A stretch of DNA of 64,000 bases from an uncultured Anaeroplasmataceae bacterium (lineage in GTDB: Bacteria > Bacillota_I > Bacilli_A > Acholeplasmatales > Anaeroplasmataceae). Below, piece by piece: positions 54,233 to 58,622 of the stretch (position 1 is the stretch's first letter; the number at the start of each line of letters is the position of its first letter). The notes beneath the pieces were generated by a model. The model worked only from the letters and a program-made list of their open reading frames with translations, was not told where the DNA came from and ran no database searches. Location: assembly GCA_949840955.1 (NCBI GenBank), contig CATKXV010000003.1:124001-188000 (forward strand). The letters are read 5' to 3'. Position numbers and translations under genes: made by a program.

Positions 54233-54799
54233 TTATTTGCTGATAACTTTTATCTCCTGAAGCTTTTCCCACTCTGTTTCAAAGTCATCATCTGGTACCC
54301 AGCTTTTTCCAAAATCAACTTCTTTAAAAAGAGATGCTAATCCTGTTAATTGCTTAAGTCTTAGTATTTCATCCTTATCCATACCAAGATGCTTCGCAAT
54401 CCATGCATCTGATCTACCCAATTCATGAAGTTCATTTACAATACTACTCATTAAATCTACATTATGAATACCTCTAGCTCGATTATGTCTTATCGTGCTT
54501 GCCATTCTTTTATCTAATGGCTTATCAATTACGGTTACTGGAAGCATCCCATTTTCACGCTCATAAATATCCTTATGCTCTAGCATTATACGATATCTAT
54601 GAAACCCGTCCACTATAATGTATTTATCATTTTCTTGATCATAATAGCAAACTACTGGCATTGTATAGCCATCCTCTTTAATGCTATCATATAACAATTT
54701 CATTTCGGGTGGAGCTACAGAATTGGGATTATAATTATTTGGTTCTATTTTTTCTATAGCAATGGGTATGACATGATAGACTGGACTAATGTAAGGCAT
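54233..54799 (-). CDS. IbrB-like ParB/Srx-domain protein
   Basis: 188 residues. A ParB-like N-terminal fold (IPIAIEKIEPNNYNPNSV, then YIIVDGFHRYR with GFHR at 65-68), followed by a helical part with a helix-turn-helix look (SDAWIAKHLGMDKDEILRLKQLTG). It overlaps the PAPS-reductase-like gene by one base. This pairing is the IbrA/IbrB combination described in E. coli as activating Eib genes and common on mobile DNA. Biochemical role unknown. Confidence 0.88.
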   Translation of the reverse strand: MPYISPVYHVIPIAIEKIEPNNYNPNSVAPPEMKLLYDSIKEDGYTMPVVCYYDQENDKYIIVDGFHRYRIMLEHKDIYERENGMLPVTVIDKPLDKRMASTIRHNRARGIHNVDLMSSIVNELHELGRSDAWIAKHLGMDKDEILRLKQLTGLASLFKEVDFGKSWVPDDDFETEWEKLQEIKVISK

Positions 54800-56118
54800 T
54801 ATAATTCCTCCAATACTAAATATTTTTGTTTTATATTTTCTATTTTTTTCTGTTGCTCACGAGATAAACCAAATCCCATAAAGCGACAGATGTGATCATT
54901 TTTTAAGATACAGTAACACATTCTTTTCCAGCTCGGAATATCCTTAGATGATTTTATATCATCTGTATGGTCTGGAATTTTCCCTAAAAAAATAACTCTT
55001 TCATTTTTAAAAATCGTATAATTTGAAATTCCATTTCGCTTAATATGATATCCTCTTTGCTCTAGCTCTCTTATAACGGATTCCTCTAGACCTCCACCAA
55101 CATTATGCCAAAAATGAATCGAGGTGTTAAATTTTTTAATATAATTATTTCTAACCCTTGTAGGAAGAGTACTTAATAAAAATTTTGTGTAGGATTCCCA
55201 TGTATGTCCTTCTGGCAAAGAAATATTGCGATATCCCAATGCCTTTGTTCTTCCGTATATACCTGCAAAATTCACTCCTTTCACTCTGCCTAAAAGCTTT
55301 ACCCAGGTATCCGGCTCAATCACTCTATATAAATTTAAGCTATCCTTGGCATAATCATTAAAGGGAGAGGCAACCCTCATAGCTGATGGCTTTACTCCAG
55401 CCTGATAAAATAGATCATATAAAGGATTATATTTATAATGATTTAAAGAAATAGCATGCCACACATCAGAAACACTCCAATCATATAATGGAGATCCACA
55501 CCAAACATTTTTAAATTGCTGCGTAATCCAACACTGGTGCTTATATCCTTTTTTCTTATTTAAAAAACCACTATATCGATGCAAAGACTCATCAGCCCTT
55601 ATTCCCAACAAGCAAATGGTAGAGGTTTCCCCATGAGACAGCTTATACCATCTACCAAATTGCTTGGCAAGATCCTCTTGATGCATCTTATATTTATAGG
55701 TTGTTATTGGATTATTATCTAAGGTGATTACATATTCATGCTCAGGAAGTTGCCTTACCCATAATTCCTTTTTGGCATCATCCCAAGGATACCAATACAT
55801 CTCATAATTACTTAAGGCTGTTCGAGTTGCCATAGGTAAGCATACCCAATATAACTCGGCTTCATTTTTGAGATTTTCAAAGGTCTCCTCCACATATCGA
55901 GTCGTATAACTGTATTGTGCTTCAAAGTCTTGATGAAAAACTCCAATCATTTTATTAGGATAATATTTTCTTTTATAATCTAATACTAGGCTCAATAAAA
56001 GCCCACTATCCTTACCGCCAGAAAAAGAAACAAATATATTTTCAAATTCTTCAAATATGAATTTCAATCGCAGCATAAGACTATCATATACATTGATATC
56101 TAGATACTTCTTTTTCAT
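54799..56118 (-). CDS. IbrA-like PAPS reductase/ATP-pyrophosphatase family protein (DUF3440)
   Basis: 439 residues. PP-loop SGGKDS at 33-38, an HQDFEAQYSYTTRYVEE segment, and the long C-terminal part of the DUF3440 group (WCGSPLYDWSVSDVWHAI...YNPLYDLFYQAGV). The fold activates a substrate with ATP, as in PAPS reductases and DndC-type enzymes; the natural substrate of IbrA is not known. The ATG at 56116-56118 is listed; a TTG two codons earlier is closer to AAGGAG. Its promoter carries a palindromic operator. Confidence 0.88.
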   Translation of the reverse strand: MKKKYLDINVYDSLMLRLKFIFEEFENIFVSFSGGKDSGLLLSLVLDYKRKYYPNKMIGVFHQDFEAQYSYTTRYVEETFENLKNEAELYWVCLPMATRTALSNYEMYWYPWDDAKKELWVRQLPEHEYVITLDNNPITTYKYKMHQEDLAKQFGRWYKLSHGETSTICLLGIRADESLHRYSGFLNKKKGYKHQCWITQQFKNVWCGSPLYDWSVSDVWHAISLNHYKYNPLYDLFYQAGVKPSAMRVASPFNDYAKDSLNLYRVIEPDTWVKLLGRVKGVNFAGIYGRTKALGYRNISLPEGHTWESYTKFLLSTLPTRVRNNYIKKFNTSIHFWHNVGGGLEESVIRELEQRGYHIKRNGISNYTIFKNERVIFLGKIPDHTDDIKSSKDIPSWKRMCYCILKNDHICRFMGFGLSREQQKKIENIKQKYLVLEEL

Positions 56119-56152
56119 AGGCAAATATACTCCTTCTTGTGAAAGTGAATAT

Positions 56153-56182
56153 ATTATATCATAAAATTGGTAAAATTTACCA
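56153..56182 (-). promoter_or_regulatory. ibrA-type promoter with palindromic operator
   Basis: Extended -10 TGATATAAT (minus, 56153-56161). The palindrome TGGTAAA-A-TTTACCA at 56168-56182 covers the -35 position, a typical repressor arrangement. No regulator gene is adjacent. Confidence 0.6.
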
Positions 56183-56320
56183 TTTTTTGACAAAATTTGT
56201 TACGCACTCATAAAACAAAAAAGTTTTTAAAAAAAGAAGATATACTTAAAAATCAAATGCTTTATTGCTTTGGAATATTGATTTCAAAACCAACAAAAAA
56301 GGTACTGAAAAAACCTAACT

Positions 56321-56690: not shown

Positions 56691-56747
56691 CATAAAAAAT
56701 ACCTCTACTGATTGTAACATATTTGTCCAATAAATGGGGTAAGTTCA
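56691..56747. repeat. Direct repeat, left copy
   Basis: About 57 bases (from CATAAAAAATACCTC to GGGGTAAGTTCA), closely matching 58564-58622 in the same orientation. It bounds the toxin-antitoxin segment on the left. Confidence 0.75.
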
Positions 56748-56795: not shown

Positions 56796-57257
56796 CTATT
56801 CTAATCCTAATTCATTATGAAAATACTTTAATGTAGAATACTTACTTAAAGCATCAAACTCATAGGGGTACTTCGCTGGTTCTAACATTATTTTCTTATA
56901 CTTTAAAACAAAATTCTTAAACTTATTGATAATAAAAATTGATTTAGAAGATAGTTCAACAAATTCTTTTTGATCTATTGTTGCTGAATCACCAATATAT
57001 CTAGTATCATTTACTATTACTGCTTTAGAATAATCAAGAGCTGTGCTTGTTAATGTGTTCCTATTCGAATTAGAAAACTTATAACAATACTTATGTTTAA
57101 TGTTTGTTCTAAATGGAATTGCAAATGTATTATTCTCAATTTTTACTAATAACACTAAAAATGGTCTAAACTCTTTATCTTCCATTTCTGGATATTTAGC
57201 AACATTATAATCAATATAGAATTGTGGTGATAATAGTCTTATTTCGTAATTTTTCAT
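56796..57257 (-). CDS. Type III toxin-antitoxin endoribonuclease toxin, TenpN/CptN-like
   Basis: 153 residues. Recognised by EIRLLSPQFYIDYN, the FRPFLVLLVKI strand, AIPFRTNIKHKYCYKF and the late DQKEFVEL and FKNFVLKYKKIM helices of the type III toxin fold; such toxins cut A-rich RNA and are held inactive by a repeat RNA. The ATG at 57255-57257 follows GAGG by 8 bases; earlier in-frame codons lie in the terminator. Upstream are a terminator, RNA repeats and a promoter in the exact order of known toxIN, cptIN and tenpIN loci. Subfamily assignment is tentative. Confidence 0.85.
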   Translation of the reverse strand: MKNYEIRLLSPQFYIDYNVAKYPEMEDKEFRPFLVLLVKIENNTFAIPFRTNIKHKYCYKFSNSNRNTLTSTALDYSKAVIVNDTRYIGDSATIDQKEFVELSSKSIFIINKFKNFVLKYKKIMLEPAKYPYEFDALSKYSTLKYFHNELGLE

Positions 57258-57273
57258 TGTGTTTACCTCAAAA

Positions 57274-57303
57274 AAATTGTGCTCCATTGAAAGAGCACAA
57301 TTT
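57274..57303 (-). terminator. Intrinsic terminator between antitoxin RNA and toxin gene
   Basis: 11-bp perfect stem AAATTGTGCTC / GAGCACAATTT, 8-nt loop, then TTTT on the minus strand, 16 bases before the toxin ATG. Leaky termination here sets the RNA-to-toxin ratio in known type III systems. Confidence 0.9.
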
Positions 57304-57398
57304 CATCTTCTAATTAGGATTTCTTTTTTCAGTGTTACCTTCGCACTGTATCTACCTTTTGAGATTTCTTTAGAGTGTTACTCTCACACTTTATCTTC
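57304..57398 (-). ncRNA. Type III antitoxin RNA with two ~44-nt repeats
   Basis: Two related units on the minus strand: AGTGTGAGAGTAACACT (57374-57390) and AGTGCGAAGGTAACACT (57331-57347), start-to-start 43 bases, each followed by an AGAAATC box (45 bases apart). Each unit can pair AGTG with CACT. The RNA start is placed about 7 bases after the -10 box, and the terminator follows the second unit. Confidence 0.8.
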
Positions 57399-57404
57399 AC
57401 TTAT

Positions 57405-57433
57405 ATTATATGTTATTTTTATAATTTTAGCAA
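57405..57433 (-). promoter_or_regulatory. Promoter of the type III toxin-antitoxin module
   Basis: Minus-strand -35 TTGCTA (57428-57433), 17-base spacer, -10 TATAAT (57405-57410), directly before the antitoxin repeats. The ~135 bases between here and the GIY-YIG remnant hold nothing else recognisable. Confidence 0.75.
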
Positions 57434-57570: not shown

Positions 57571-58023
57571 TTAATTGCTATTTAGCCCAAATTGTCTTGA
57601 CATTAGAACTTCTTTCCAATAATTTTCCCTTTGAATGATATAGTCTTTTCCTAGGTTCATATTCCAAACTTCTAAAATAAAATATTTAAAATTAGTTTTA
57701 TAATTCTGACCATTTGTATTCAATAAGTTCTTTAGATCTATATTTCCACCATGACCATTTTTTACATATTCAGACCATCGTTGCCATATACAATCCTCAC
57801 CATAAGCACTACCAACATATTGCTTTCTCGTAAACATATCTACGATCAAGTAAACTCCCTTCACATTAGATAAAGCAGATTTCAAAGTTGCTATATTATT
57901 ATCTATAATTTTTGATTTATGACCATTCTCTATAAAAGTATCTAATGCTTTTTCATCATAAATGGATTGTATAAGTCTAATTGTTATCTCTTGAAGATTA
58001 GAAATGTCTTCAGGAAAACTAAT
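57571..58023 (-). pseudogene. GIY-YIG nuclease domain, N-terminally truncated remnant
   Basis: The open frame encodes a GIY-YIG core: GVYLIVDMFTRKQYVGSAYG, then IWQRWSEYVKNGHGGN and a C-terminal RENYWKEVLMSRQFG. Intact relatives have a larger N-terminal part; here the frame opens only 45 codons before the core (FPEDISNLQEITIRLIQSIY) and has no ATG or GTG with a ribosome site. The nearest start is a TTG giving 104 residues. It abuts the truncated RhuM frame, so a deletion probably joined the two. Confidence 0.6.
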
Positions 58024-58374
58024 TTAATATATTAGAAGCCCCATTTCTAAAGTGAATACCACAATGAGATTTTACACGATAACCGACCGCAAGAATTGCA
58101 TCTAAATTATAATGTTGAGTTGGTCTTTGACGACTAAATTCGGAAATTCCGAATTTAGTCATTACTTCTGATTCAATCAATTCGCCTTCTGAAAAGATAT
58201 TTTTTAAATGTTCATTAATTGTGGATTTAGATTTCTGATATAATTCCGACATTTTTTCTTGCGTAAGCCATATAGTATTACCGTCAAAAACATCTTCTAC
58301 TTTTGTTTGGCCATCTTCAGTTTGATAAAGAATTATACTTCCATTAGGATTCTTCTTTAGATTTGATATATATA
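58019..58374 (-). pseudogene. RhuM-family protein, truncated and lacking a normal start codon
   Basis: The frame reads NPNGSIILYQTEDGQTKVED, then DGNTIWLTQEKMSELYQKSK, then HYNLDAILAVGYRVKS and FRNGASNILN before a stop: the N-terminal domain of virulence RhuM proteins, which are normally about 330 residues. A good AAGGAG lies upstream, but the codon at start distance is ATA, not ATG, in an AT-repeat. An internal ATG (58250-58252) would give only 77 residues. Confidence 0.65.
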
Positions 58375-58563: not shown

Positions 58564-58622
58564 CATAAAAAAATACCTCCACTTATTGTAACATATTTGT
58601 CCAATAAATGGGGGTAAGTTCA
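58564..58622. repeat. Direct repeat, right copy, adjoining tRNA-Ser
   Basis: About 59 bases matching 56691-56747 with a handful of differences. Internally an imperfect inverted repeat: TACCTCCACTTATTG against CAATAAATGGGGGTA, two mismatches. It ends 7 bases from the 3' end of tRNA-Ser, suggesting an attachment site, a small non-autonomous element or a transposon end. Confidence 0.7.

Follow-up and report, generated by a model that had tools for sequence, protein, structure and literature searches.

Computational evidence for a TenpIN-family type III toxin–antitoxin module with two pseudoknotted RNA units in an uncultured Anaeroplasmataceae bacterium

The 64,000-nucleotide stretch of contig CATKXV010000003.1 analysed here (positions 124,001 to 188,000, referred to as the window), from an uncultured Anaeroplasmataceae bacterium, very probably carries a type III toxin–antitoxin module of the TenpIN family on its minus strand. 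A module of this type had been proposed in a sequence-only reading, and the proposal is now supported by the family profile of the protein, by its predicted fold and by covariation in the repeat RNA. With family, fold and RNA pairing all computed, an RNA-inhibited endoribonuclease of the TenpIN family is the best supported description of the system; processing, complex formation, toxicity and a role in phage defence or DNA retention may be expected by analogy with known systems. The family itself was already known, and it gains a well-supported member from an Acholeplasmatales-related lineage.

Layout of the module and identity of the toxin

Read along the minus strand, positions 57433 to 56796 contain, in order, a promoter-like site, a pair of repeats, a hairpin terminator, a site for ribosome binding and an open reading frame (ORF) of 153 codons (Table 1). 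Every element of the earlier reading, including the 17-bp promoter spacer, was therefore present in the claimed order, and its two repeats of about 44 nt were found at about 43 nt (start spacing 43, period 43–45) with 79% identity over a 28-nt ungapped core. The promoter scan listed 8 sites in the region against a mean of 11.8 in shuffled sequences, a count not above chance, and the repeat score, matched or beaten by 9 of 1000 dinucleotide shuffles and 3 of 426 window tiles, is alone moderately unlikely. Neither the promoter nor the repeat carries much weight alone; the case rests on the protein and its relatives. What raises the repeat above chance is the recurrence of the same arrangement upstream of related toxins; an A/T-rich, −10-like element is also seen at the same place upstream of the closest of these, L003.

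The terminator hairpin (57304–57273) has a folding energy of −17 kcal/mol and none of 200 shuffled sequences was as stable; a consensus terminator scan listed no terminator in the region, though the hairpin is clear by folding. The ORF finder had chosen a longer, 163-residue frame whose start at 57287 falls inside the terminator stem. As a GAGG sequence also lies 8 nt upstream of the ATG at 57257, this ATG is the likely start.

Table 1 Positions of the module features in the window and of the apparently divergent arrays in plasmid records
Feature	Position	Strand	Basis or remark
Promoter-like site, TTGCTA-17-TATAAT	57405..57433	-	10/12 matches
Antitoxin array with AGA(T) motifs at its three unit borders	57305..57398	-	
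Antitoxin unit 1 core	57361..57390	-	sequence, repeat alignment, comparative parse
Unit 1 S1, AGUG(U)/(A)CACU	57390-57386 with 57378-57374	-	
Unit 1 S2, GAG/CUC	57383-57381 with 57363-57361	-	
Unit 1 A-rich linker	57373-57364	-	
Antitoxin unit 2 core	57316..57347	-	sequence, repeat alignment, comparative parse
Unit 2 S1, AGUG/CACU	57347-57344 with 57334-57331	-	
Unit 2 S2, AGG/CCU	57340-57338 with 57318-57316	-	
Unit 2 A-rich linker	57330-57319	-	
Hairpin and T-run of the intrinsic terminator that separates antitoxin from toxin	57270..57304	-	folding, z −5.6
Ribosome-binding site GAGG, 8 nt before ATG	57266..57269	-	sequence
TenpN-family toxin, 153 aa, ATG at 57257	56796..57257	-	NF047358 profile, fold, alignment
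Apparently divergent array regions (plasmid records)	L033 1210-1414; L034 1285-1480; L078 1-162 with L080 450-811		

In a profile search, a check that the sequence-only reading had suggested, the sole match of the toxin in NCBIfam was NF047358 (TenpIN), with an E-value of 7e-39 and 133.3 bits against a curated cut-off of 90. The match extended over the full length of the profile (positions 1–141 of 141). Pfam gave no match and PADLOC did not recognise the toxin. A sequence search of the PDB with the toxin found no match, and with an 8-sequence profile it found one insignificant match (E 1.2). In the 8-sequence alignment the toxin keeps all 15 invariant columns, which include R31, P48, R50, H55, D75, K78, Y120 and T142-L143-x-Y145-F146.

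The AlphaFold model of the toxin (pLDDT 91.7) has the type III, Kid/MazF-like RNase fold. In structural alignments the five best matches were ToxN (4ato, Z 10.8), CptN (4rmo, 10.6), ToxN (2xd0, 10.4), AbiQ (4glk, 10.4) and E. coli ToxN (7d8o, 10.2), and MazF-type toxins came next, with Z 6.7 and below. The type III toxins headed the list only after re-alignment of the Foldseek candidates; plain Foldseek returned nothing at E ≤ 0.001, with the MazF family first at 0.019.

The module had been described as TenpIN/CptIN-like, and a CptIN-type system was considered on the grounds of a likeness to CptI of Eubacterium rectale (two repeats of about 43–45 nt, an A-rich linker) and of the place of CptN in the fold list, second but tied with others. 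CptI of this organism is described in a passage of PMC4627078 as a 45-nt pseudoknot from two genetic repeats. However, the Z-scores of ToxN, CptN and AbiQ are tied within 1, so the fold comparison does not separate the families, whereas the one NCBIfam profile that the sequence matches is TenpIN, above its curated cut-off. A CptIN-type module is thus very improbable, and only the TenpIN half of the description is retained, the single NCBIfam match being the TenpIN equivalog. CptIN_Er (4rmo), ToxIN (2xd0, 4ato, 7d8o) and AbiQ (4glk) share the predicted toxin fold and a pseudoknotted repeat RNA with the module, but differ from it in sequence, with 7–12% identity in the structural alignments and no sequence-level match to the PDB chains.

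The closest described counterpart of the module is within its own family. TenpIN_Pl of Photorhabdus luminescens shares the toxin family by the curated profile NF047358 and the order array–terminator–toxin (according to the Figure 1 legend of PMC5086642), but probably differs in its RNA sequence, and the window has two non-identical units in a Bacilli host. The tandem nucleotide repeats upstream of the toxin that define type III systems in section 7 of PMC5086642 are present in the window, as is the rho-independent terminator expected between repeats and toxin in TenpIN.

The repeat RNA and its pairing

The array–terminator–toxin layout recurs upstream of relatives of the toxin. Units of the clade closest to the window share the pattern S1(4 bp) N-GA-S2(3)-UA-N S1', followed by an A-rich linker ending in GAA(A/G)U or similar and then S2'. 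This is the H-type pseudoknot order given for ToxI and CptI in passages of PMC5086642 and PMC4627078.

Units were parsed with positions fixed, S1 required to pair and S2 ignored, so that only S2 provides an unconditioned test. In 19 regions the parse yielded 34 units, of which 23 are distinct, and S2 pairs in all 23. All 69 of the S2 cells in the distinct units are Watson–Crick; shuffling gave a mean of 60.1 and a maximum of 67, and none of 20,000 shuffles reached the observed value. The S2 combinations were GGG/CCC (18 units), GAG/CUC (3), AGG/CCU (1) and UGG/CCA (1), and the covariation rests on GAG/CUC (window, L003 and L008), AGG/CCU (window) and UGG/CCA (L003). S1, on whose pairing the parse was conditioned, occurs as AGUG/CACU, GGUG/CACC, GGUC/GACC and two G–U-containing forms. 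A fifth S1 pair is Watson–Crick in 16 of the 23 units and C–A in the remaining 7. Within the window's genome the unit pattern occurs only at these two units. The comparative evidence therefore indicates pseudoknotted repeats, as in TenpIN, and the repeats are very probably the RNA antitoxin of the toxin.

For unit 1 of the window an alternative S2 register, GAGA/UCUC, is also possible. Minimum-energy folding of the single units was ordinary (z −0.4 and −0.7) with a program that is blind to pseudoknots, and Rfam gave no match for the array. A solved structure for the TenpI antitoxin family was not encountered in this analysis; the window and its relatives provide a comparative pseudoknot model for one TenpI antitoxin clade.

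As the repeats lie directly upstream of the terminator and the ORF, they could instead control the toxin gene in cis, as an attenuator or leader, and give rise to no trans-acting antitoxin RNA. Against this, three plasmids that encode TenpIN-family toxins apparently have the array, together with promoter-like and terminator sites of its own, on the opposite strand (see below), where action in cis on the toxin message would be impossible; members of TenpIN, CptIN and ToxIN have moreover been shown to act as toxin–antitoxin pairs, as stated in a passage of PMC4627078. A leader of this kind is highly unlikely.

The sequence AGA is found in the border stretch preceding unit 1 in 13 of the 15 two-unit arrays, in the one separating the units in 15 and in the one following unit 2 in 9, and it stands at all three borders in 8 of the 15, the window included. 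The AGA(T) borders are candidate sites of cleavage by the toxin, and cutting there would release two complete units.

A mechanism can be proposed in which a single promoter would give a short RNA containing two H-type pseudoknot units. The terminator would halt most transcripts and a minority would read through, allowing TenpN to be translated. By analogy with ToxIN and CptIN, TenpN would act as an RNA endonuclease, cleaving the precursor RNA at its AGA(T) borders into two pseudoknots of about 43 nt, and it would be kept inactive in a protein–RNA complex with these pseudoknots. If the supply of antitoxin dropped, through gene loss or takeover of transcription by a phage, free toxin would be expected to cut cellular RNA and growth would stop. 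A TenpIN from Photorhabdus aborts phage PhiM1, with plating lowered to about 1e-2, according to a passage of PMC5377504.

Number and divergence of the units

By self-alignment a two-copy array with a period of 41–57 was found in 47 of 50 upstream regions, which are not independent (L047/L048, L049–L052, L036/L071/L072/L074 and L073/L076 are near-copies) and include six whose toxin frames have stops, splits or truncation (L008, L010, L012, L013, L016 and L020). The exceptions were L044, whose contig begins inside the array, and L054 and L020, in each of which one unit was seen; the 50 do not include L077, a satellite phage in which a single unit was recognised by eye. Having only two repeats, which had been put forward as a peculiarity of this module, is thus shared by nearly all of the related regions, and a low-order assembly like that of CptIN, a heterotetramer of two toxins and two RNAs, does not follow from the repeat number alone. 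Upstream of position 511 in L014 (minus strand), two near-identical units and a third, degenerate copy were seen by eye.

Identity between the units of an array ranges from 71 to 100% and is 79% in the window. In the window, the S2 stem of unit 1 (GAG/CUC) and that of unit 2 (AGG/CCU) are each self-complementary, and the crossed combinations, GAG with CCU and AGG with CUC, do not pair. The suggestion that the window holds a distinct antitoxin sequence is correct insofar as the pseudoknot stems of its two units differ and each is matched within its own unit. The gut and rumen metagenome-assembled genome (MAG) modules L003/L041 (Acholeplasmatales) and L042–L048 have 47–61% toxin identity and the same unit architecture as the window. 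L042–L048, from Ruminococcus, Lachnospiraceae, Clostridium and Eubacterium MAGs, mostly have GGG/CCC stems in both units, unlike the window, whereas the unit-1 and unit-2 types of L003 are those of the window: its stems are GAG/CUC and UGG/CCA and its linkers show the same difference between units. Since the split is shared by the window and L003, it probably predates their separation.

Automatic mapping of the stem of one unit onto the other showed compensation from unit 2 to unit 1 in the window and in both directions in L002, L037, L040 and L060. From unit 1 to unit 2 of the window the mapping fails, the longer GAGA/UCUC register having been picked (0 Watson–Crick, 2 G–U and 2 unpaired). 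It also fails in L003, where GAT/ATC was picked (2/3) and the automatic register choice missed the shared stem. Mapping gave no compensation in L036/L071/L072/L074 (3/5 or worse), L045, L057 and L010, and none in one direction in L042, L046 and L048; no knot was obtained in one or both directions in L030, L035, L036, L059, L072, L074, L075 and others.

Insulation, in which stems diverge to block cross-pairing between neighbours, found no support as a general rule. Many arrays have identical stems in both units, L002 and L040 each have one of two cross-combinations that pairs when G–U is allowed, and the same is true of 72 of the 194 cross-combinations of different stems among the 23 distinct units. 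The divergence is read here as drift under selection for each pseudoknot, and a functional difference between the units is possible. An unlikely reading is that the units form a fixed pair and are not interchangeable: their stems would have diverged with compensation until each unit could fold only with itself, and the toxin would form an asymmetric complex containing a single copy of each unit type. The split is found in a second species, and L002, L037, L040 and L060 show comparable compensated differences within their arrays. The individually compensated stems of two-unit arrays make the equivalence of the units a testable question.

Distribution, genomic setting and divergent arrays

The family is sparse. 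TenpIN matches above the cut-off were found in 4 of 100 relatives (counting the window's own genome) and in none of the 10 other genomes of the genus, and TenpIN matches were found in 12 of 395 genomes in the class and 10 of 392 in the phylum. A tblastn search matched 60 plasmid and 4 phage records, all at less than 60% identity. Single-protein searches of viral contigs and genome contigs found no relatives; alignment-based searches gave 4 matches in the former and 21 in the latter. Records representing the same place were counted once (L006 = L050, L015 = L054, L041 = L003 and L055 = L013). L038 duplicates L037 and was dropped, as were L009, which has too little upstream DNA, and L005, L017–L019 and L021–L025, which are weak, partial or broken matches. 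A Streptococcus phage record named after fexA and optrA (L075, 700–923) has a gene annotated as TenpN at 76 bits, under the cut-off; read by eye, its two upstream units have differing long stems, AGAGUA/UACUCU and AAGGGUC/GACCCUU, and no separate terminator hairpin was seen before the toxin.

The closest relative, L003/L041, has 61% toxin identity and comes from an Acholeplasmatales MAG that belongs to the same family as the genome of the window. Positions 56820–57410 of the window are 75% identical in DNA to its contig over 602 columns, covering toxin and array. Only the module matches between the two contigs, and the flanks in L003/L041 are different, housekeeping-like ORFs.

In the window the module sits between genes for tRNA-Ser (58630) and tRNA-Thr (54077). 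On one side (54233–56193) a ParB-like gene, below the Pfam cut-off, overlaps a DUF3440/PAPS-reductase-like gene with weak similarity to DndC, a pair that we take to resemble IbrB/IbrA pairs. On the other side are a 104-residue ORF (57571–57885) whose match to UzuA profiles (1.3e-40) is confined to their C-terminal third, and a 77-residue ORF (58019–58252) that matches part of PDC-S05 profiles (1.3e-25). These two partial ORFs are probably remnants of defence or mobile genes. The module and the adjoining fragments are flanked by a 46-nt direct repeat, 96% identical (56694–56739 and 58568–58613), whose copies are perhaps the ends of a lost insertion element.

A surE-like gene and the tRNA-Thr gene are kept together in six genomes of the genus, and in five of these, examined further out, no TenpN-like match was found around tRNA-Thr. 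One, L083, has a distant PDC-S05-like match beyond tRNA-Thr, and the DNA between the two partial ORFs of the window (57896–58018) gives a 123-nt match, at 87%, to L083 4177–4299 near the same tRNA-Thr. The setting and the comparison within the genus together indicate that the stretch is a variable site adjoining a tRNA gene.

The partial UzuA and PDC-S05 neighbours, with the 46-nt repeat on both sides, could suggest that the module too is a decayed, inactive remnant amid mobile-element fragments, and the toxin frames of the relatives L008, L010, L012 and L013 do contain stops. The toxin ORF of the window is nevertheless full length over the profile with its 15 invariant columns kept, and S1 and S2 are preserved in both RNA units. 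Decay is therefore very unlikely, and the module is real and probably intact.

Three Gram-positive species have plasmids on which the array appears to run divergently from the toxin: Enterococcus faecalis (L033), Jeotgalibaca porci (L034) and Staphylococcus arlettae (L078/L080). The array is present in 4 plasmid records. The toxins are of the TenpIN family (113, 127 and 118 bits, respectively), and the two units before each, with an A-rich linker and an AAGC/GCUU stem, are read on the opposite strand. Because the symmetry of S1 and S2 does not tell the strands apart, the strand was assigned from the promoter, terminator and linker. Scans of L033 and L034 gave a promoter-like site and a terminator of 13 or 12 pairs on the opposite strand; they also report terminator-like sites on the plus strand at the S1 hairpins, and their promoter counts are near chance. 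The same divergent order was read by eye in L078/L080. Section 2 of PMC5086642 states that all type III systems share a single-promoter operon arrangement, and among the titles returned by full-text literature searches no divergent type III arrangement was found. If the divergent order is true, co-transcription of antitoxin and toxin would not be obligatory in type III systems.
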